Shown: piece by piece, positions 8,508 to 13,507 of the stretch
Position numbering within the stretch: position 1 is the stretch's first letter
How the letters are laid out: each line of letters opens with the position of its first letter
NCBI RefSeq assembly: GCF_003387475.1
Contig: NZ_QUNO01000014.1
Location: forward strand, 186,001-250,000
Reading direction: 5' to 3'
Source: Kutzneria buriramensis
GTDB taxonomy: Bacteria > Actinomycetota > Actinomycetes > Mycobacteriales > Pseudonocardiaceae
Length of the DNA stretch: 64,000 nucleotides
Translations under genes and position numbers: made by a program
The notes under the pieces: generated by a model
What the model was told of the DNA's origin: nothing
What the model saw: the letters and a program-made list of their open reading frames with translations, nothing else
Databases searched by the model: none

Positions 8508-8533
8508 GCAACGCCGGCGGACCGGCCGGGAAC
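8508..8533 (+). promoter_or_regulatory. Putative ECF-sigma promoter, leaderless, of the secreted exodomain paralogue
   Basis: GCAAC at 8508-8512 and GGGAAC at 8528-8533 are separated by 15 bases, and the ATG follows 35 bases after the first box. The same two boxes, same spacing and same distance to the start codon occur before the sigma factor gene (9207-9232). The start codon lies too close for a Shine-Dalgarno sequence, so a leaderless transcript is likely. Confidence 0.6.
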
Positions 8534-8542
8534 ACACCGGGC

Positions 8543-9148
8543 ATGACCACGACGAAGCTGACCATGGCCCTGTCCGCCGCAGCCGCGATCGGCTTGCTCG
8601 CCGCCGGCAGCGGCATCGCCCTCGCCGCGGACCCCGGCACCGGCACCACGATCGCCGCCACCGGTGACGCGAAGACCGCTCAGGAGTGCGTCCAGGCCGA
8701 CGGCCACGTGCCGGACCCGACCACCTGGCGGCCGGCCGCGAGGATCACTGTGGACGCTCGCCACGGCTTCTTGGTGATCCGCAACGACAAGCTGGCCGCG
8801 ATCTGCACCGTCGAAGACGGCCACGGCACCGGCATCATGGGCGGCGTCGAGACCCGGCACGTCTACGGCAAGCTCACCGCCGCACGGCCGTTCGACTACC
8901 TCAGCTCGATGAACTACCTCGCCGACAAGACCCACCCGGCGGAGTCCATCCACTTCGGAATCACCACCGCCGACGTGAAGTCCGTGTCCCTGGTGGGCCC
9001 CGACAAGTCCGTACGGGACGCCGACGTCAAGGACGGCACCTTCGTCGTGCGCACGCCGTTCGGCGAGGACAGCGACCAGGCCACCACCAACCACGTCCGA
9101 GTGACGCTCACCAACGGCCAGGTCATCACCGGGCCGTTCCGCGGCTAA
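8543..9148 (+). CDS. Secreted protein homologous to the anti-sigma exodomain encoded at 9883
   Basis: 201 aa with a signal peptide (MTTTKLTMALSAAAAIGLLAAGSGIALAA, cleavage likely after ALA). The mature part matches the extracytoplasmic domain of the nearby anti-sigma factor almost end to end: DPTTWRPAARI against DPTSWRPAARI, GFLVIRN against SFLVIRN, ESIHFGI against ESIHFGI, and GQVITGPFRG against GQVLVGPLRS. Both have two Cys residues in matching places (near QECVQAD and AAICTVE). I do not recognise the domain by name. A soluble copy of a sensor domain could compete for the same ligand or modulate sigma release (inference). Confidence 0.8.
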   Translation: MTTTKLTMALSAAAAIGLLAAGSGIALAADPGTGTTIAATGDAKTAQECVQADGHVPDPTTWRPAARITVDARHGFLVIRNDKLAAICTVEDGHGTGIMGGVETRHVYGKLTAARPFDYLSSMNYLADKTHPAESIHFGITTADVKSVSLVGPDKSVRDADVKDGTFVVRTPFGEDSDQATTNHVRVTLTNGQVITGPFRG

Positions 9149-9206
9149 ACTCCGAGCCCGGCCGTGCCGCGCGCACCGGGCACGGCCGGGACGCCCCGGC
9201 GGCGAT

Positions 9207-9232
9207 GCAACGCGCGCCGGGCGACCGGGAAC
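9207..9232 (+). promoter_or_regulatory. Putative autoregulated ECF promoter of the sigma factor gene
   Basis: GCAAC (9207-9211), 15 bases, then GGGAAC (9227-9232), then the GTG start 35 bases after the first box. This is the same geometry as at 8508. It is not found before the anti-sigma gene, which is translationally coupled to the sigma gene. Confidence 0.6.
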
Positions 9233-9241
9233 ACCCCTGGT

Positions 9242-9883
9242 GTGATGACGGTTGGAGAGCGGTTGCGGCGACCGGGGACGGACGCCGGGGACGACCACCC
9301 GGCGTTTTCGCTGTGCGACGACCAGGCCCTGTGGCAGGAGGCGGCGCACGGCGACCGCGCCGCGTTCGGCGAGCTGTTCCGCCGGCACGCCGAGGCCGTC
9401 TGGAACTACGCGTACCGGCTGACCGGGTCGTGGTCGGTGGCCGAGGACCTCACGTCCGCCACCTTCCTGGCCGCCTGGCGTCGGCTGGGCGACATGACGC
9501 TGGTCAACTCCAGCGCGCGGCCGTGGCTGTACACCGTGGCCAGCAACCTGGCCCGCCACGAGTACCGCCGGCAGGGCCGGTTCTCCCGCGTGCTGACCCG
9601 CCTGCCCCTCAACGACACCACCCGCGATCACGCGGACGACGTGGTCGACCAGATCGACGCCCAGGGCAAGCTGCGGACTGTGCTCGACGCCGTCACCAAG
9701 CTGCCCAAGGCCGAGCGCCAGGCGGTCGAGCTGTGCCTGCTCGGCGAGCTGTCCACGGCCGACGCCGCCGAGGCGCTCGGCATCGCCGAGGTCAGCGTGC
9801 GGGCGCGGATCTCCCGGGCCCGCAGCCGACTGCGCGGCGTGTTGAGTGACACCATCGACGTGCCAGCTCTGGAGGAGGGGTGA
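9242..9883 (+). CDS. ECF-type sigma-70 family RNA polymerase sigma factor
   Basis: About 213 aa. GTG 9242 and ATG 9245 are consecutive in-frame starts. The GTG lies at the same distance from the promoter boxes as the ATG of the secreted paralogue gene, so I take it as the start of a leaderless message. Region 2 (DRAAFGELFRRHAEAVWNYAYRLTG, AEDLTSATFLAAWRRL, PWLYTVASNLARHEYRR) and region 4 (LPKAERQAVELCLLGELS, AEALGIAEVSVRARISRAR) are complete and there is no SnoaL extension. The stop TGA shares one base with the ATG of the anti-sigma gene. It probably drives its own promoter and that of the secreted paralogue. Confidence 0.92.
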   Translation: MMTVGERLRRPGTDAGDDHPAFSLCDDQALWQEAAHGDRAAFGELFRRHAEAVWNYAYRLTGSWSVAEDLTSATFLAAWRRLGDMTLVNSSARPWLYTVASNLARHEYRRQGRFSRVLTRLPLNDTTRDHADDVVDQIDAQGKLRTVLDAVTKLPKAERQAVELCLLGELSTADAAEALGIAEVSVRARISRARSRLRGVLSDTIDVPALEEG

Positions 9884-10584
9884 TGGACGAGCTGCCGGAG
9901 CGCCAACGAATGCCCGAGGCCCTGCGGGACCGGATGTGGGCCGAGCTGGAGCCGCAGCTGGAGGCCGAGGCCCCGGCCAGCCGGTTCCGGTCGATGCGCG
10001 CGCCGCTGGCGGTGGCCGCGTCGGTGGTCGTGCTCGCCCTCGCCGCGGTGTTCGTGATCCCACAGCTGCGCGGCTCGCAGGTCGGCACGGCGTCCGGCGG
10101 CGACGCGCAGATCGCCCTGCAGTGCGCCCACGCCGACGGCGGCCTGCCCGATCCGACGAGCTGGCGGCCCGCGGCGCGGATCGACGTCGACGCCACGGAC
10201 AGCTTCCTGGTCATCCGCAACACCGTGTCCGCCGCGGTCTGTGCCATCGAGACCGGCCAGCGCGTGGGCGTCATGGGCGGCCCCACCACGCGCGCGGACT
10301 ACAGCAAGCTCACCGCCGCGCATCCGTACCTGTACTTCGACTCCATGAACTACCCGGCGGCCGCCAACCATCCGCAGGAGTCGATCCACTTCGGCATCGT
10401 GGCCAGCAACGTGAAGTCCCTGGAGCTGCTGGGGCCGGACAACTCCGTGCGGCAGGCCATCGTGCAGGACGGCGTCTTCATCGTCCGGACCAGCATCCCC
10501 GAGGACAGCAACCAGCCCAACACCAACTCCGTGCGCGTCACGCTGAACACCGGGCAGGTCCTGGTGGGCCCGCTGCGGTCCTGA
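9883..10584 (+). CDS. Membrane anti-sigma factor with large extracytoplasmic domain
   Basis: 233 aa. It starts at ATG 9883 with GGAGGAGG just upstream, inside the end of the sigma gene (TGATG overlap), which implies translational coupling. Residues 1-40 are cytoplasmic (PERQRMPEALRDRMWAELEP), one membrane helix follows (LAVAASVVVLALAAVFVI), and about 165 residues are extracytoplasmic. No zinc-binding HxxxCxxC motif is present, so it is not a ZAS-type anti-sigma. The exodomain is duplicated in the secreted protein at 8543. The anti-sigma role is inferred from position and topology. Confidence 0.75.
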   Translation: MDELPERQRMPEALRDRMWAELEPQLEAEAPASRFRSMRAPLAVAASVVVLALAAVFVIPQLRGSQVGTASGGDAQIALQCAHADGGLPDPTSWRPAARIDVDATDSFLVIRNTVSAAVCAIETGQRVGVMGGPTTRADYSKLTAAHPYLYFDSMNYPAAANHPQESIHFGIVASNVKSLELLGPDNSVRQAIVQDGVFIVRTSIPEDSNQPNTNSVRVTLNTGQVLVGPLRS

Positions 10585-10587
10585 CCG

Positions 10588-11907
10588 CTACGCCGTGGCC
10601 GGCCCGGCCTGCTGCGGCACGAGGTGGGTCAGCTTGACCCGGTTGCGGCCGGCGGCCTTGACCGCGTACAGGGCGGCGTCGGCGGCGCGGATCGCCTCGT
10701 CGATGGTGTCGCTGCTGTCGTGGGGGATGAGCGCCGCGCCGATGGAGATCGACAGGTTGCCGATGACCACCGGGTCGTCGTCCTCGTCCAGCGCCACGGT
10801 CAGCGAGCGGATGCGTTCCCGGATGCGCTCGGCGATGGCCCGGGTCCGCTCCTCGTCGACGTCGATGAGCAGCGCGATGAACTCCTCGCCGCCCCACCGC
10901 CCGACGATGTCGTAGTCCCGGACCTCGGTCTGCAACGCCTTGGCGACGGCCTCCAGCGCCCGGTCGCCGCCGATGTGCCCGTACGTGTCGTTGACCTGCT
11001 TGAAGTGGTCCAGGTCGGCGATCAGCACCGCCAGCGTGGCGTCGTGCACCTTGGCCCGCTCCAGCGCCCGGCGCGCCTCCTGGTACCACCAGTCCAGGGT
11101 GTAGAAGCCGGTCTTGGCGTCCGTGCGGGCGGCGGTCCGGAACTGGTGCAGCAGCAGGCCGCGGTGCACGGTGACGACGCCGACGACCACCGCCAGCAGC
11201 AGCGGCGGGCTCGTCACGGCCAGCGCGGCGGCCAGCAGCCCGAACGCGTAGGCCCCGACCTCCTGAGACTGCTCGTGGAAGTTCTCCAACACCTTGGAGA
11301 GCCGCGTGTTCGGCGCGGAGATCAGGATCGCGGTGACGACCAGGCCGTAGTTGAGCAGCCAGCGCAGGCAGAACGCGGCCGCGATCACCGCCAGGTCGGC
11401 GAAGCCGGCCCAGGTCGGCCGGGGCAGGCCGGGGTAGCTCGGCAGGCCCAGCGCCAGCACGGCGATGGCCGCCTGCGTGCCCAGCAGGACCGTCGCGCAC
11501 GAGAAGACCCAGCGGAACAGGTTCAGCGGGCGCTGCCGGGGCCAGATGCGCAGCCACGCGATCGTGTAGGTCACGACGACCAGCGCGGAGGCCAGCAGCG
11601 GCGGCAGGATCAGCGCGCCCGCGACCGACCAGACGGCCTTCGTGTCCAGGTACGGGCCGGCGCCCGCCCCGCGCTCGCGCTGCCGCTCGGTCGGCCGGAC
11701 GCCCTCGATGTGCAGCCACGCGCCGGCGGTGAGCATGCCGGCGTAGATCAGGTCCGAGGTGCGGACCGGCATCAGGAACGCGGTGCCCGTCGCGGCGGCG
11801 ATCGCGACCGCCTCGACCATGAGCACGAACGCGACGACGTGGCGTGGGGCCTGCCACAACGGCCAGGACCGCACCCAGTGCCAAGGCGCAGCGATCAGGG
11901 TCCGCAC
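10588..11907 (-). CDS. Diguanylate cyclase (membrane domain plus GGDEF)
   Basis: 439 aa from GTG 11907. The first about 260 residues contain around eight hydrophobic segments without a recognised ligand domain. The C-terminal GGDEF domain has substrate-binding LIADLDHFKQVNDTYGH and active site GGEEF at 339-343. RDYD five residues before it is an intact RxxD I-site, so feedback inhibition by c-di-GMP is expected. No EAL domain is present. It is divergent from the DNNW micro-ORF array and shares that upstream region. Confidence 0.94.
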   Translation of the reverse strand: MRTLIAAPWHWVRSWPLWQAPRHVVAFVLMVEAVAIAAATGTAFLMPVRTSDLIYAGMLTAGAWLHIEGVRPTERQRERGAGAGPYLDTKAVWSVAGALILPPLLASALVVVTYTIAWLRIWPRQRPLNLFRWVFSCATVLLGTQAAIAVLALGLPSYPGLPRPTWAGFADLAVIAAAFCLRWLLNYGLVVTAILISAPNTRLSKVLENFHEQSQEVGAYAFGLLAAALAVTSPPLLLAVVVGVVTVHRGLLLHQFRTAARTDAKTGFYTLDWWYQEARRALERAKVHDATLAVLIADLDHFKQVNDTYGHIGGDRALEAVAKALQTEVRDYDIVGRWGGEEFIALLIDVDEERTRAIAERIRERIRSLTVALDEDDDPVVIGNLSISIGAALIPHDSSDTIDEAIRAADAALYAVKAAGRNRVKLTHLVPQQAGPATA

Positions 11908-11975
11908 CGTGCCTCACCTTGCCGGAAACGACGGGGCCGCCGGGGCACGGCCGAGATGTCCACCGTAACCAAACT

Positions 11976-12015: not shown

Positions 12016-12076
12016 GCGGGCCGAAAACCGCCCGCTTGGCCGAACTCGTTAAGCCCTCTGAAGGAGGTGGATGACC

Positions 12077-12115
12077 GTGCGCGACAACAACTGGCGTGAC
12101 AACAACTGGCGCTGA
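12077..12115 (+). CDS. Micro-ORF 1: 12-residue peptide MRDNNWRDNNWR
   Basis: GTG CGC GAC AAC AAC TGG, repeated once, then CGC and TGA. AAGGAGGTG at 12061-12069 is a near-perfect Shine-Dalgarno sequence with 9 bases between GGAGG and the GTG. An in-frame ATG at 12071 would give MTV before RDNNW but leaves only 3 bases of spacing. The peptide has two direct repeats of RDNNW plus a closing Arg. It has no signal or leader region and matches nothing I know. Translation is inferred from the conserved ribosome site in all three micro-ORFs. Confidence 0.6.
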   Translation: MRDNNWRDNNWR

Positions 12116-12168
12116 CCGGTTCTCCCAGGTCAGGCGGGGTATTCGAGATCGGAGAGGCGGTGTGCGGC

Positions 12169-12207
12169 GTGCGTGACAACAACTGGCGTGACAACAACTG
12201 GCGCTGA
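12169..12207 (+). CDS. Micro-ORF 2: identical 12-residue peptide MRDNNWRDNNWR
   Basis: It encodes the same peptide as micro-ORF 1. The Arg2 codon differs (CGT here, CGC there), and the flanking DNA is unrelated. GGAGAGG at 12151-12157 lies 11 bases before the GTG. Another in-frame GTG at 12160 is too close to that site. Conservation of peptide and start context while the spacer diverges supports coding function over simple duplication of DNA. Confidence 0.55.
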   Translation: MRDNNWRDNNWR

Positions 12208-12254
12208 CCGACAATTCTCGAAAAGCAGTTCGAAAAATAAGGAGGTGGCCGGCA

Positions 12255-12281
12255 ATGCGTGACAACAACTGGGCGGCATGA
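12255..12281 (+). CDS. Micro-ORF 3: 8-residue peptide MRDNNWAA
   Basis: ATG CGT GAC AAC AAC TGG GCG GCA TGA. TAAGGAGGTG at 12238-12247 is a strong Shine-Dalgarno sequence, again 9 bases before the start. This member has a single RDNNW unit and ends in Ala-Ala. Its stop lies two bases from the stop of the convergent MFS gene. It is the third member of the array and shows that the MRDNNW start is the constant part. Confidence 0.55.
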   Translation: MRDNNWAA

Positions 12282-12283
12282 GA

Positions 12284-13507
12284 TCACGCGGCTTCCGCGG
12301 GACGCCGCCCGACCACCCGGGACCACGCCACCGCGGCGGCCAAACCGGTGATCGTGCCGAGTCCACCGGCGAGCCCTATCACCCATTCGGTCGGCATCAG
12401 CTGGGCGAGCAGTCCGGCGACCGCGATGCCGACGCCCTGCGCTGCCCGCAGGCAGGCGACGGCCAGCCCGACGGCCTGGCCGCGGGCGCTCGCCGGCACG
12501 GCGGTGGTGAAGGCCGCGTTGGTGATCGCGTCATGGGCCGTCGCCATGCCGCTGAGCGCCCACAGGCCCACCGTGACGGCCAGGCCCGGCGCCAGCGCCG
12601 TCGGGATGAGCAGTGCGCTGCTGGCGATCGCGAGCGGGCCCAGGCACCGCAGCTTGCGGTCCGGGCTGAGCCTGTTCAGCAGCAGGACGCCGATCACCGT
12701 GCCCACCGGGTTGGCCGCGAGGAGCCAGCCCACCCCGCCCGTGCCGGCGCCGATCCTTGAGGCGTACGCGACCGCCAGGCCCTCGGGGATCACGTAGAAG
12801 CCGCAGAGGCAGGCGATCGCGAGCAGCACGCGGGCCTCGCGGTGGGCGGCGATCGCCGCAATGCCGCCGCGCAGCGACGACCACCACGCCCTGCGTCGCT
12901 CGGGTCGTTGCGCGGGCGGTCGATGCCTCGACACTCCGGCGGCGATCAGGCCCGCCGACAGCACGAACGTGCCGGCGTCTACCAGCAGCGCCCCCTGCGC
13001 GCCGATCGCCGTCACCACCGCCGCGCCGCCGCCGAAACCGAGCACCAGCGCCAGTTGGTACGTCCCGCTGAACACGCCGGCCCCGACGGTGAAGCGGTCC
13101 CCGTCAAGGATCTCCGGCAAGGCCGCGCTGCGCGCCGCCGTGAACGGTCCGGCCAGCAGTTGCACCACGAACAGCGCGCCGATCTGAACGCCCAGCGGCA
13201 TTCCCGGTAACGCGAGGAGGCCGACGAGGAGGGCGCGCGCCAGGTCGGCGGTGACCATCACCAGGCGCCGCGAGTAGCGGTCGGCCACGCCGGCGAGGAT
13301 CGAACCACCGAGCAGATCGGGCAGGAATGTCACCGCGTAGGCCAGCGCCGACAGGGCCGGCGAGTGCGTGCGGTCGAACACCAGCACGCTGACCGCCACC
13401 CGGGCCAGCTGATCACCGGCGACCGAGGCGACGTGCGCCAGCCACAGCGCGCGGAACTCGCCGACCGCGAACACATCGCGGTAGCGGGCCGCCGCCACGT
13501 GCCCCAT
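12284..13507 (-). CDS. MFS transporter (EntS-like exporter type)
   Basis: 407 aa, 12 predicted membrane helices. The N-terminus FRALWLAHVASVAGDQLARVAVSVLVFDRT, the loop motif GVADRYSRRLVMV between helices 2 and 3, and GTVIGVLLLNRLSP in the second half are typical of the enterobactin-exporter-like branch of MFS used for drug or peptide efflux. It starts at ATG 13507 and converges with the DNNW micro-ORFs, its stop lying two bases beyond theirs. Transport of those peptides is only a guess. Confidence 0.9.
   Translation of the reverse strand: MGHVAAARYRDVFAVGEFRALWLAHVASVAGDQLARVAVSVLVFDRTHSPALSALAYAVTFLPDLLGGSILAGVADRYSRRLVMVTADLARALLVGLLALPGMPLGVQIGALFVVQLLAGPFTAARSAALPEILDGDRFTVGAGVFSGTYQLALVLGFGGGAAVVTAIGAQGALLVDAGTFVLSAGLIAAGVSRHRPPAQRPERRRAWWSSLRGGIAAIAAHREARVLLAIACLCGFYVIPEGLAVAYASRIGAGTGGVGWLLAANPVGTVIGVLLLNRLSPDRKLRCLGPLAIASSALLIPTALAPGLAVTVGLWALSGMATAHDAITNAAFTTAVPASARGQAVGLAVACLRAAQGVGIAVAGLLAQLMPTEWVIGLAGGLGTITGLAAAVAWSRVVGRRPAEAA

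Follow-up and report, generated by a model that had tools for sequence, protein, structure and literature searches.

The window analyzed here, a stretch of 64,000 nucleotides from Kutzneria buriramensis, carries on its forward strand an array of three tandem micro-ORFs, each led by a Shine-Dalgarno (SD) sequence, closed by TGA and coding for (M/V)RDNNW peptides. The first, with the SD AAGGAGGTG at 12061–12069, starts with GTG and specifies VRDNNWRDNNWR, with two in-frame copies of the motif (12077–12115); the second, for which GTG is again the start and VRDNNWRDNNWR the product (12169–12207), follows the SD GGAGAGG at 12151–12157 and has an extra in-frame GTG at 12160; the third, which starts with ATG and specifies MRDNNWAA (12255–12281), follows the SD TAAGGAGGTG at 12238–12247. 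The motifs are accordingly arranged 2+2+1, and the underlying 15-base unit has five copies in the array and no others in the 11.97-Mb genome. The original prediction of three SD-led micro-ORFs for MRDNNW-type peptides is confirmed by the sequence, by a scan of the window and by the ortholog of the array in a sister species (G004), in which all three SDs are kept together with the reading frames and DNNW, the spacers have changed by substitutions and indels, all three micro-ORFs have counterparts, and the second and third read MSDNNWRDNNWR and VNDNNWAE, respectively. The accompanying claim that every micro-ORF has a strong SD holds for the first and the third, which score 8 of 8, but not for the second, with a score of 4. 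Across the 64 kb, the scan for SD-led ORFs of 5–12 codons that contain Trp returned eight on the forward and two on the reverse strand; the array accounts for three of the eight, and the only two tandem pairs with the same motif are both inside it, although one of the three forward-strand ORFs with an SD score of at least 6 lies outside.

The flanking genes are located where the original prediction placed them: the array is divergent from a gene for a membrane diguanylate cyclase (DGC; 10588–11907, reverse strand; Pfam PF00990, E 3e-40) and abuts a convergent gene for a transporter of the MFS_1 family (12284–13507, reverse strand; Pfam PF07690, E 2.8e-22), which ends 2 nt past the stop codon of the third micro-ORF. 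In the cyclase, about seven long predicted helices (residues 22–261) precede a GGDEF domain (residues 261–423) with the active-site sequence GGEEF. Among 37 aligned cyclases, D298, D300, G339, G340 and E342, which comprise the GG(D/E)E signature and the metal-binding Asp residues, are invariant, and the active site is mostly GGEEF or GGDEF, with a few cases of GGEEL or GGDEL. An AlphaFold2 model of residues 1–262 (pLDDT 90, pTM 0.87) folds into a bundle of roughly seven long helices. This predicted sensor domain has no Pfam family and no sequence match in the PDB, and a fold search returned nothing at E ≤0.001; the most probable of the weak fold matches listed, the ECF S-component TmRibU (probability 0.77, E 1.1), is not relied on. 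Diguanylate cyclases with membrane sensors, such as those of the MASE and MHYT types, consist of a multi-helix membrane domain fused to GGDEF. The DGC in the window shares this combination of a multi-helix membrane domain with a catalytic GGDEF domain, but its N-terminal domain differs in having neither a Pfam family nor a confident solved relative. The transporter is related to the NCBIfam model TIGR00900 and shows weak similarity to drug-efflux families, in all cases below the cut-offs.

Just upstream of the cyclase gene, at 11964–11973 of the forward strand, lies the motif CGTAACCAAA (CGTAACCNAA) which, taken with the two bases that precede it, gives TACGGT on the strand of the cyclase. Allowing at most one mismatch, it recurs in 35 of 135 loci, compared to 1 of 135 when the sequences were shuffled once; it was chosen by eye from the same 135 loci, and its role as, perhaps, a piece of a promoter is inferred. 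A second upstream motif, CCGGNTGGCCNA, was found at the same tolerance in 21 of the 135 loci, against 4 after shuffling.

The search of relatives for SD-led MRDNNW that had been proposed with the original prediction uncovered a large family, with arrays in Amycolatopsis and Jiangella. The pattern employed (GGAG, 6–14 bases, RTG-CGN-GAY-AAY-AAY-TGG) matches 44 of the 390 genomes of the window's taxonomic family, in 5 of 46 genera, which is a lower bound given that GGAG and the exact motif are both required; the reversed pattern yielded no family genome among the matches listed. Among named genomes, the pattern identified 34 stretches, of which 26 belong to the actinobacterial genera Kutzneria, Amycolatopsis, Saccharomonospora, Qaidamihabitans, Jiangella and Phytoactinopolyspora; outside the window's family, Jiangella has 8 copies and Phytoactinopolyspora one. 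The other eight stretches, scattered single matches outside actinobacteria, are rejected as chance occurrences, with about 19 such matches expected in 257 Gb under the assumption of uniform composition: in six of them the frame runs on for 36–784 codons, and the remaining two are short (7 codons in L040 and 9 in L046). These two, MRDNNWR in Synechocystis salina and MRDNNWNRS in a Bacteroidota MAG, are SD-led single copies and probably also due to chance. A phage origin is likewise discarded, the only viral contig match being a single 13-codon ORF.

The RDNNW arrays contain up to 20 SD-led copies per site, in Amycolatopsis, mostly 60–110 nt apart. We collected 36 RDNNW loci of at most 20 kb each, found via the motif and including the window's own. 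The result that would have refuted the original prediction, namely relatives that keep the repeated DNA and lose frame, start or SD, was looked for and the opposite was seen: of 278 exact copies of the core, 258 have a start codon one codon ahead, and all 16 that are second copies within an ORF are in frame (at a spacing of 15, 21 or 24 nt). Two further copies have the start one codon further upstream and two have none (GTA and ATA instead); additional copies include four with an altered core residue and one with a synonymous change (AAT). Position 2 of the peptides is R, Q, S, N or C and the residues after Trp vary, with DNNW constant throughout. SD-led Trp ORFs number 239 in the 20,923 nt of the arrays and 82 in the 1,410,201 nt around them, a 196-fold higher density inside, and 199 tandem same-motif pairs fall inside the arrays against one outside; this density contrast is only descriptive because the 36 loci were selected by the motif.

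The original prediction had treated the cyclase and the transporter as mere neighbors of the array, a view that does not survive comparison, both being conserved partners across the RDNNW loci. With the window's own locus counted, a DGC gene lies beside the array in 33 of the 36 loci, an MFS gene in 34 and both in 32, at 43–60% protein identity outside Kutzneria. The exceptions are two Saccharomonospora loci (G330 and G336) with the peptide and MFS genes but no adjacent DGC, the Phytoactinopolyspora locus, which lacks the MFS gene, and one site (L135, in G337) without either. Clustering of the proteins encoded in these loci traced the MFS protein through 8 lineages and the DGC through 7; no third lineage-crossing family within the loci of up to 20 kb is comparable, the next best being present in 7 of 36. 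Within Amycolatopsis alone, further neighbor families, unidentified, recur in 23 and 16 loci, as the synteny of close species predicts. The site L135 (G337:C80:9500-29400) holds a second MRDNNW copy and a fragment of the spacer that separates the cyclase and MFS genes, inserted between rsmD-like and coaD-like genes (named by eye), a duplication or a misassembly.

Homologs of the cyclase are far more widespread than RDNNW, with matches at E ≤1e-60 in 261 of 386 genomes of the family. Among 394 genomes sampled class-wide, a single-sequence search gave 22 cyclase matches, 18 of them in family f22, and a profile search 53 (22 in f19, 18 in f22 and 13 in others or in the window's family). We examined 100 loci drawn by cyclase similarity: the first 20 are the top-scoring cyclases without the SD and RDNNW pattern, the next 60 were hand-picked from among the matches listed, and the last 20 came from the class-wide sample. 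Peptides of the x-x-polar-W design, mostly with motifs other than RDNNW (ENTW, DVNW, DTTW, GNSW, PTDW, DSNWH and GSEWH among them), are encoded at 81 of the 100 loci, in one of two layouts: arrays of micro-ORFs or a single ORF with repeats. The constancy of Trp is partly by construction, since the scans demanded this residue, together with an SD score of at least 4 and an ATG, GTG or TTG start.

Specifically, 15 of the 20 top-scoring cyclases are accompanied by peptide ORFs, one case is ambiguous and four have none. The micro-ORFs in these 15 loci read VRDVNW, MRDDVNWTR, MADNNW, MSDNNWSR, VRNNTWRRNNTWS, MRENTWRENTWK, MRDTNW, MRENNW and MRKQENNW, and two of the loci have one repeat ORF each, VADSNWHRDSNWHYADSNWH... 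and MTVTTQSSSARGSEWHRGSEWH.... The sixty further loci add the motifs RPTDW, STDW, RPNDW, RPSEW, RPADW, DSHW, DAHW, SNNW, NKSW, NKDW, NRDW, NHNW, GKDW and GHGW; the PTDW repeat proteins, among those counted, are about 80–115 residues long with 6 to 10 units, and one of the repeat proteins (G155) includes a broken unit, PTDG. Two longer repeat peptides matched no Pfam or NCBIfam profile at E up to 1; ORFs of fewer than 20 codons cannot be scanned with these profiles. In twenty Jiangella-type loci, of the family that we take to be Jiangellaceae, the arrays consist of MRDTTWS, MRDNTWT, MRDSNWT, MRDTNW, MRDNKWSR, MRANSWD and MRGNSWD. The 1 kb upstream of the cyclase in these twenty contains 88 SD-led Trp micro-ORFs (5–12 codons) in 18 loci, against a mean of 5.5 (maximum 11) in 20 shuffles and none on the reverse strand. 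For the other 80 loci, the corresponding count, which leaves out long repeat ORFs, is 39 micro-ORFs in 25 loci, against 2.75 (maximum 6) after shuffling and 4 on the reverse strand.

Across the 100 loci, the peptide and a nearby MFS gene occur together in 63, the peptide alone in 18, neither in 17 and the MFS gene alone in none, with two ambiguous cases set aside (G190, with MRTNEIW, and the frame-shifted G001p), such that every unambiguous locus with a nearby MFS gene (63 of 63) also has the peptide (Fisher p ~1e-9, uncorrected for relatedness). The presence or absence of both features is a hand-typed reading of the scan outputs. Two loci with a weak, distant MFS gene (G273) or one on the opposite side of the DGC (G109) were counted as lacking it; the 18 of 81 peptide loci scored as peptide only have no MFS gene within about 3 kb on that side, and one of them (G385) stops at a contig edge. 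Contig ends cut the loci L170, L207, L215 and L216. Two of the twenty Jiangella-type loci (G507 and G413) are the Jiangella and Phytoactinopolyspora loci with RDNNW, and belong to both the set of 100 and the set of 36; without them, the first two counts become 62 and 17. Comparison therefore shows that the genes for the peptide and for a membrane DGC are inherited together, usually along with that for an MFS transporter.

Three loci of the wider family deserve individual mention. The genome of the window holds a second full set, with a cyclase paralog, an MFS gene and the SD-led ORF MIKRSESPRTGRPSEWRRVGRPSEWR (L198, G000:C2:21250-24450); the presence of a different peptide in this second set fits the expectation of orthogonal signals. 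A third cyclase-MFS pair in the same genome (L243, G000:C4:647700-651900) has between its genes an SD-led MTGARKTRD without Trp, which may be a degenerate or a different peptide. In another genome of the genus (L197, G001:C1:4840240-4843440), a GRPSEW peptide gene is seemingly frame-shifted, and intact relatives exist.

To delineate the outer edge of the family, the upstream regions of 20 distant cyclase homologs were checked, 18 in family f19 and 2 in the window's own family. A single SD-led short Trp ORF is present in 9 of the 18 f19 loci, encoding MSSGIQWV, VSSGVQWV, MSSGVQWI and MASVVQWG with differing codons (Ser as AGT, TCC and TCT), or else MLRGVTWI/T or MERGVTWTYQLPQPR; no such ORF was found in the other 9 of 18 or in the two loci of the window's family, and none of the f19 loci has the MFS gene. 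On the strength of these few loci, the pairing of a Trp micropeptide with the cyclase may predate both the arrays and the exporter.

Several lines of evidence bear on whether these ORFs are translated. A codon survey covered 390 micro-ORFs from 135 loci, filtered by SD and motif, some of which will be chance and two loci of which are counted twice. The first codon is ATG in 248, GTG in 139, TTG in 2 and CTG in 1, and the stop codon is TGA in 384. Synonymous codons are used across the family: Arg appears as CGC, CGT, CGG and CGA, Thr as ACC, ACG and ACT, and within one array Ser is encoded twice by AGC and four times by TCC. The 61 PTDW units of the repeat ORFs mix CCG/CCC/CCA, ACC/ACG and GAC/GAT, and the PSEW repeats use TCC or AGC for Ser. 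For four related repeat ORFs, dN is 0.03–0.12 and dS 0.14–0.62 (NG86), rough estimates given that pairs of different length were trimmed to 90 nt and compared ungapped. By contrast with this variation, Asn is AAC in 625 cases and AAT in 9, and Asp is GAC in 349 and GAT in 3, over all micro-ORFs, a near-fixation that could be explained by the codon bias of GC-rich genes; the core codons of RDNNW hardly vary, and the RDNNW clade alone therefore cannot separate constraint on the peptide from constraint on the DNA. The proposed check for synonymous substitution within the repeats thus revealed such changes in the wider family but hardly any in the core codons of the RDNNW clade. Since the peptides are kept while their codons change, the elements are best understood as translated peptides and not as RNA or DNA elements, and comparison shows, to the extent that sequences without expression data can, that the micro-ORFs are translated and that selection acts on the peptide rather than on the DNA. 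The translation originally proposed is accordingly backed by the retention of starts and frames and by the synonymous divergence across the family; of the three functions offered with it, the translation-linked RNA is disfavored, and the choice between signal peptide and RiPP is unsettled.

The two layouts were mapped onto a quickly built tree with 72 cyclases, of which 63 had been labeled by hand for architecture; 17 of its forks are weak, it contains long branches, and support for the branch order among the long-repeat clades is weak. The division between micro-ORF and long-repeat architectures requires a single parsimony change, whereas the labels, when shuffled 200 times, required 12 on average and never fewer than 9; the motif classes require 19 changes against 27.7 on shuffling (minimum 26). 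Comparison shows that it is the peptide motif that is repeated, whether through numerous ORFs of one or two motifs each or through a single ORF that contains many, and the 2+2+1 layout in the window is intermediate between these designs. Within the arrays, micro-ORFs come and go as tandem repeats do, with selection acting on the peptide. Of 609 motif copies, 476 have Arg four residues ahead of Trp, with RDNNW itself contributing 271 of these, although the list of 609 was drawn from motifs already seen and may hold chance frames. Counted by distinct sequences, Arg precedes the motif in 28 of 67 pentapeptides and, in at least one copy, in 28 of 33 tetrapeptides; it is thus far from universal. 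We conclude that the array serves as a multi-copy gene whose product is a short peptide built as x-x-(polar)-W, frequently preceded by Arg; the form in the window is RDNNW. That the motif is common to the many-ORF and the one-ORF designs favors, without proving, a cleaved free product over a device that acts as nascent chain or RNA, an inference from gene organization only.

The explanation that we consider best, though with slightly less than even confidence, is that the peptide is a cleaved and exported signal read by the DGC through its membrane domain of about seven helices; export, sensing and output are all inferred. Under this hypothesis, cleavage, perhaps after Arg, would release a penta- or tetrapeptide, the MFS protein would export it, the membrane domain of the DGC would sense it and c-di-GMP would be the output, so that a colony could read its own peptide; the copy number, from 1 to 20, might tune the dose as ORFs are gained and lost in tandem. 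A peptide gene next to genes for an exporter and a membrane enzyme is the arrangement of an autoinducer system. In filamentous actinobacteria, streptomycetes included, c-di-GMP controls development and antibiotic production. More tentatively still, the family can be viewed as an undescribed class of actinobacterial autoinducers in which a dose-tuned array, MFS export and reading by a DGC would set c-di-GMP directly; to the same limited degree we entertain the corresponding description of the autoinducer, with genes from 21 to about 50 bp, peptides that end in x-x-x-W and many orthogonal versions, some of them two per genome. Against these proposals, no peptide has been detected and the evidence is comparative only, 18 of the 81 peptide loci have no nearby MFS gene and 17 of the 100 DGC loci have neither feature; furthermore, no signal sequence was seen by eye in the peptides. 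We found no description of such arrays in the open PMC literature among the matches listed, a search that did not cover subscription papers or bioRxiv and whose matches dealt with biarylitides, pheromones of Bacillota and c-di-GMP. The micro-genes are far below the size limit of annotation pipelines, and a family that spans many genera has, within that scope, apparently gone unseen. If the peptides are signals, Amycolatopsis and Kutzneria, which are antibiotic producers, would possess a peptide language wired straight into c-di-GMP.

Precedents exist for a repeated signal unit. The precursor of the yeast alpha-factor pheromone is a multi-copy protein with near-identical units and processing residues between them; it differs in being a eukaryotic secretory precursor, and no evolutionary link is implied. 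The RRNPPA quorum-sensing systems are found in Bacillota and combine a cytoplasmic TPR receptor with a propeptide that bears a secretion signal. Rap-Phr type systems of this class, including those of Bacillus phages, are described as having tandem pheromone propeptides with several copies of the pheromone per propeptide (PMC11343458). The likeness lies in a short peptide adjoining a presumed receptor, in small peptides freed by proteolysis and in the repeated motif within one ORF that is also present here; it is a resemblance and not membership. The differences are that the adjacent genes here encode GGDEF and MFS proteins (by Pfam) and no TPR receptor, and that the present family is actinobacterial, lacks an evident signal sequence, has an MFS transporter and distributes its copies over separate micro-ORFs.

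An exported signal must be weighed against a small RiPP in which Trp would be modified by an enzyme encoded elsewhere, with the MFS protein for export and self-protection and the DGC as a local regulator, a possibility that we regard as unlikely but worth keeping in view. RiPPs usually have multi-copy short precursors and exporters, a layout with which this family agrees; moreover, Trp is the sole residue common to the motif forms (with the caveat that the scans demanded it), and the MFS protein weakly resembles drug-efflux families, below the cut-offs. A close parallel is that of the biarylitides (bytA/bytO), with genes of 18 bp, of which a Lysinibacillus strain carries as many as six copies, and shortest products of five to six residues from genes of about 20 bp (PMC13417212). 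Their pentapeptide core carries two cross-linked aromatic residues (such as YxH or YxY) and a P450 gene adjoins the precursor gene, but the window peptides have one aromatic residue, Trp, per unit, as do the other motif forms, some with a following His. No P450 gene lies beside the array, where Pfam identifies the two neighbors as GGDEF and MFS (no P450 profile scan was run), in accordance with the original remark that the biarylitide partner and motif are absent. Any RiPP with a local modifying enzyme, biarylitide or other, is rejected because no enzyme recurs across lineages, the best third family within the 20-kb loci being found in only 7 of 36; in addition, the near-universal partner is a DGC, which at 18 of 81 loci accompanies the peptide without a nearby exporter. 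A RiPP modified in trans remains possible, and a distant enzyme is not excluded. If the peptides are RiPP precursors, they would rank with the shortest and most extensively repeated ones known to us.

Another alternative, which we also consider unlikely and rank below the RiPP, is that the micropeptides act inside the cell, binding the membrane domain or the GGDEF part of the DGC, or else the MFS protein, and setting its activity without export. The persistence of the peptide-DGC link without a near MFS gene (18 of 81 loci, and the f19 loci) and the lack of an evident signal sequence speak for such action. It is hard to reconcile, however, with the MFS gene at 63 of the 81 peptide loci and at no unambiguous peptide-free locus, with the retention of peptide and MFS gene where the DGC is missing (G330, G336) and with the tandem copies in one ORF, which suggest cleavage.

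Short antimicrobials aimed at competitors, with the MFS protein for export and immunity, are a distinctly improbable interpretation: the multi-copy design, the strong SDs, the neighboring exporter and the different peptides of paralogous sets would all fit, but the units are hydrophilic and just a few residues long, and the closest partner is a signaling enzyme with its catalytic residues kept. Less probable again, and to our mind very unlikely, is a translation-linked cis-regulator, be it a set of leader peptides, a ribosome-loaded RNA antisense to the MFS gene or an attenuator. Leader-peptide attenuators and upstream ORFs do include very short ORFs with strong SDs, and a transcript of the array would enter the 3′ end of the MFS gene in antisense, 2 nt past the third micro-ORF. 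Here, however, no gene on the same strand lies directly downstream, the next gene being the convergent MFS gene; the array RNA folds worse than shuffled sequences (z +1.6); the only two Rfam matches (E 0.19 and 0.82) are far under the gathering scores; and other clades put the repeats in a single ORF, which implies that repeated starts are not the conserved feature. DNA iterons or regulator-binding sites for the DGC promoter, suggested by a 12-base core that is near-invariant within the RDNNW clade and located upstream of the DGC gene, can hardly be credited when SDs, starts, frames and stops coincide with the repeats and homologous positions differ in DNA by synonymous changes and keep the peptide design; the iteron and the RNA element are both ruled out by this conservation of frame, start and stop and this synonymous divergence, and by the Rfam and folding results.

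Elsewhere in the window, on the forward strand, the regions at about 8530–9148 and 9880–10584 encode similar proteins that share the segments DPT(T/S)WRPAARI, SMNY and ESIHFGI, with a sigma-factor-like gene (9164–9883, named by eye) between them.
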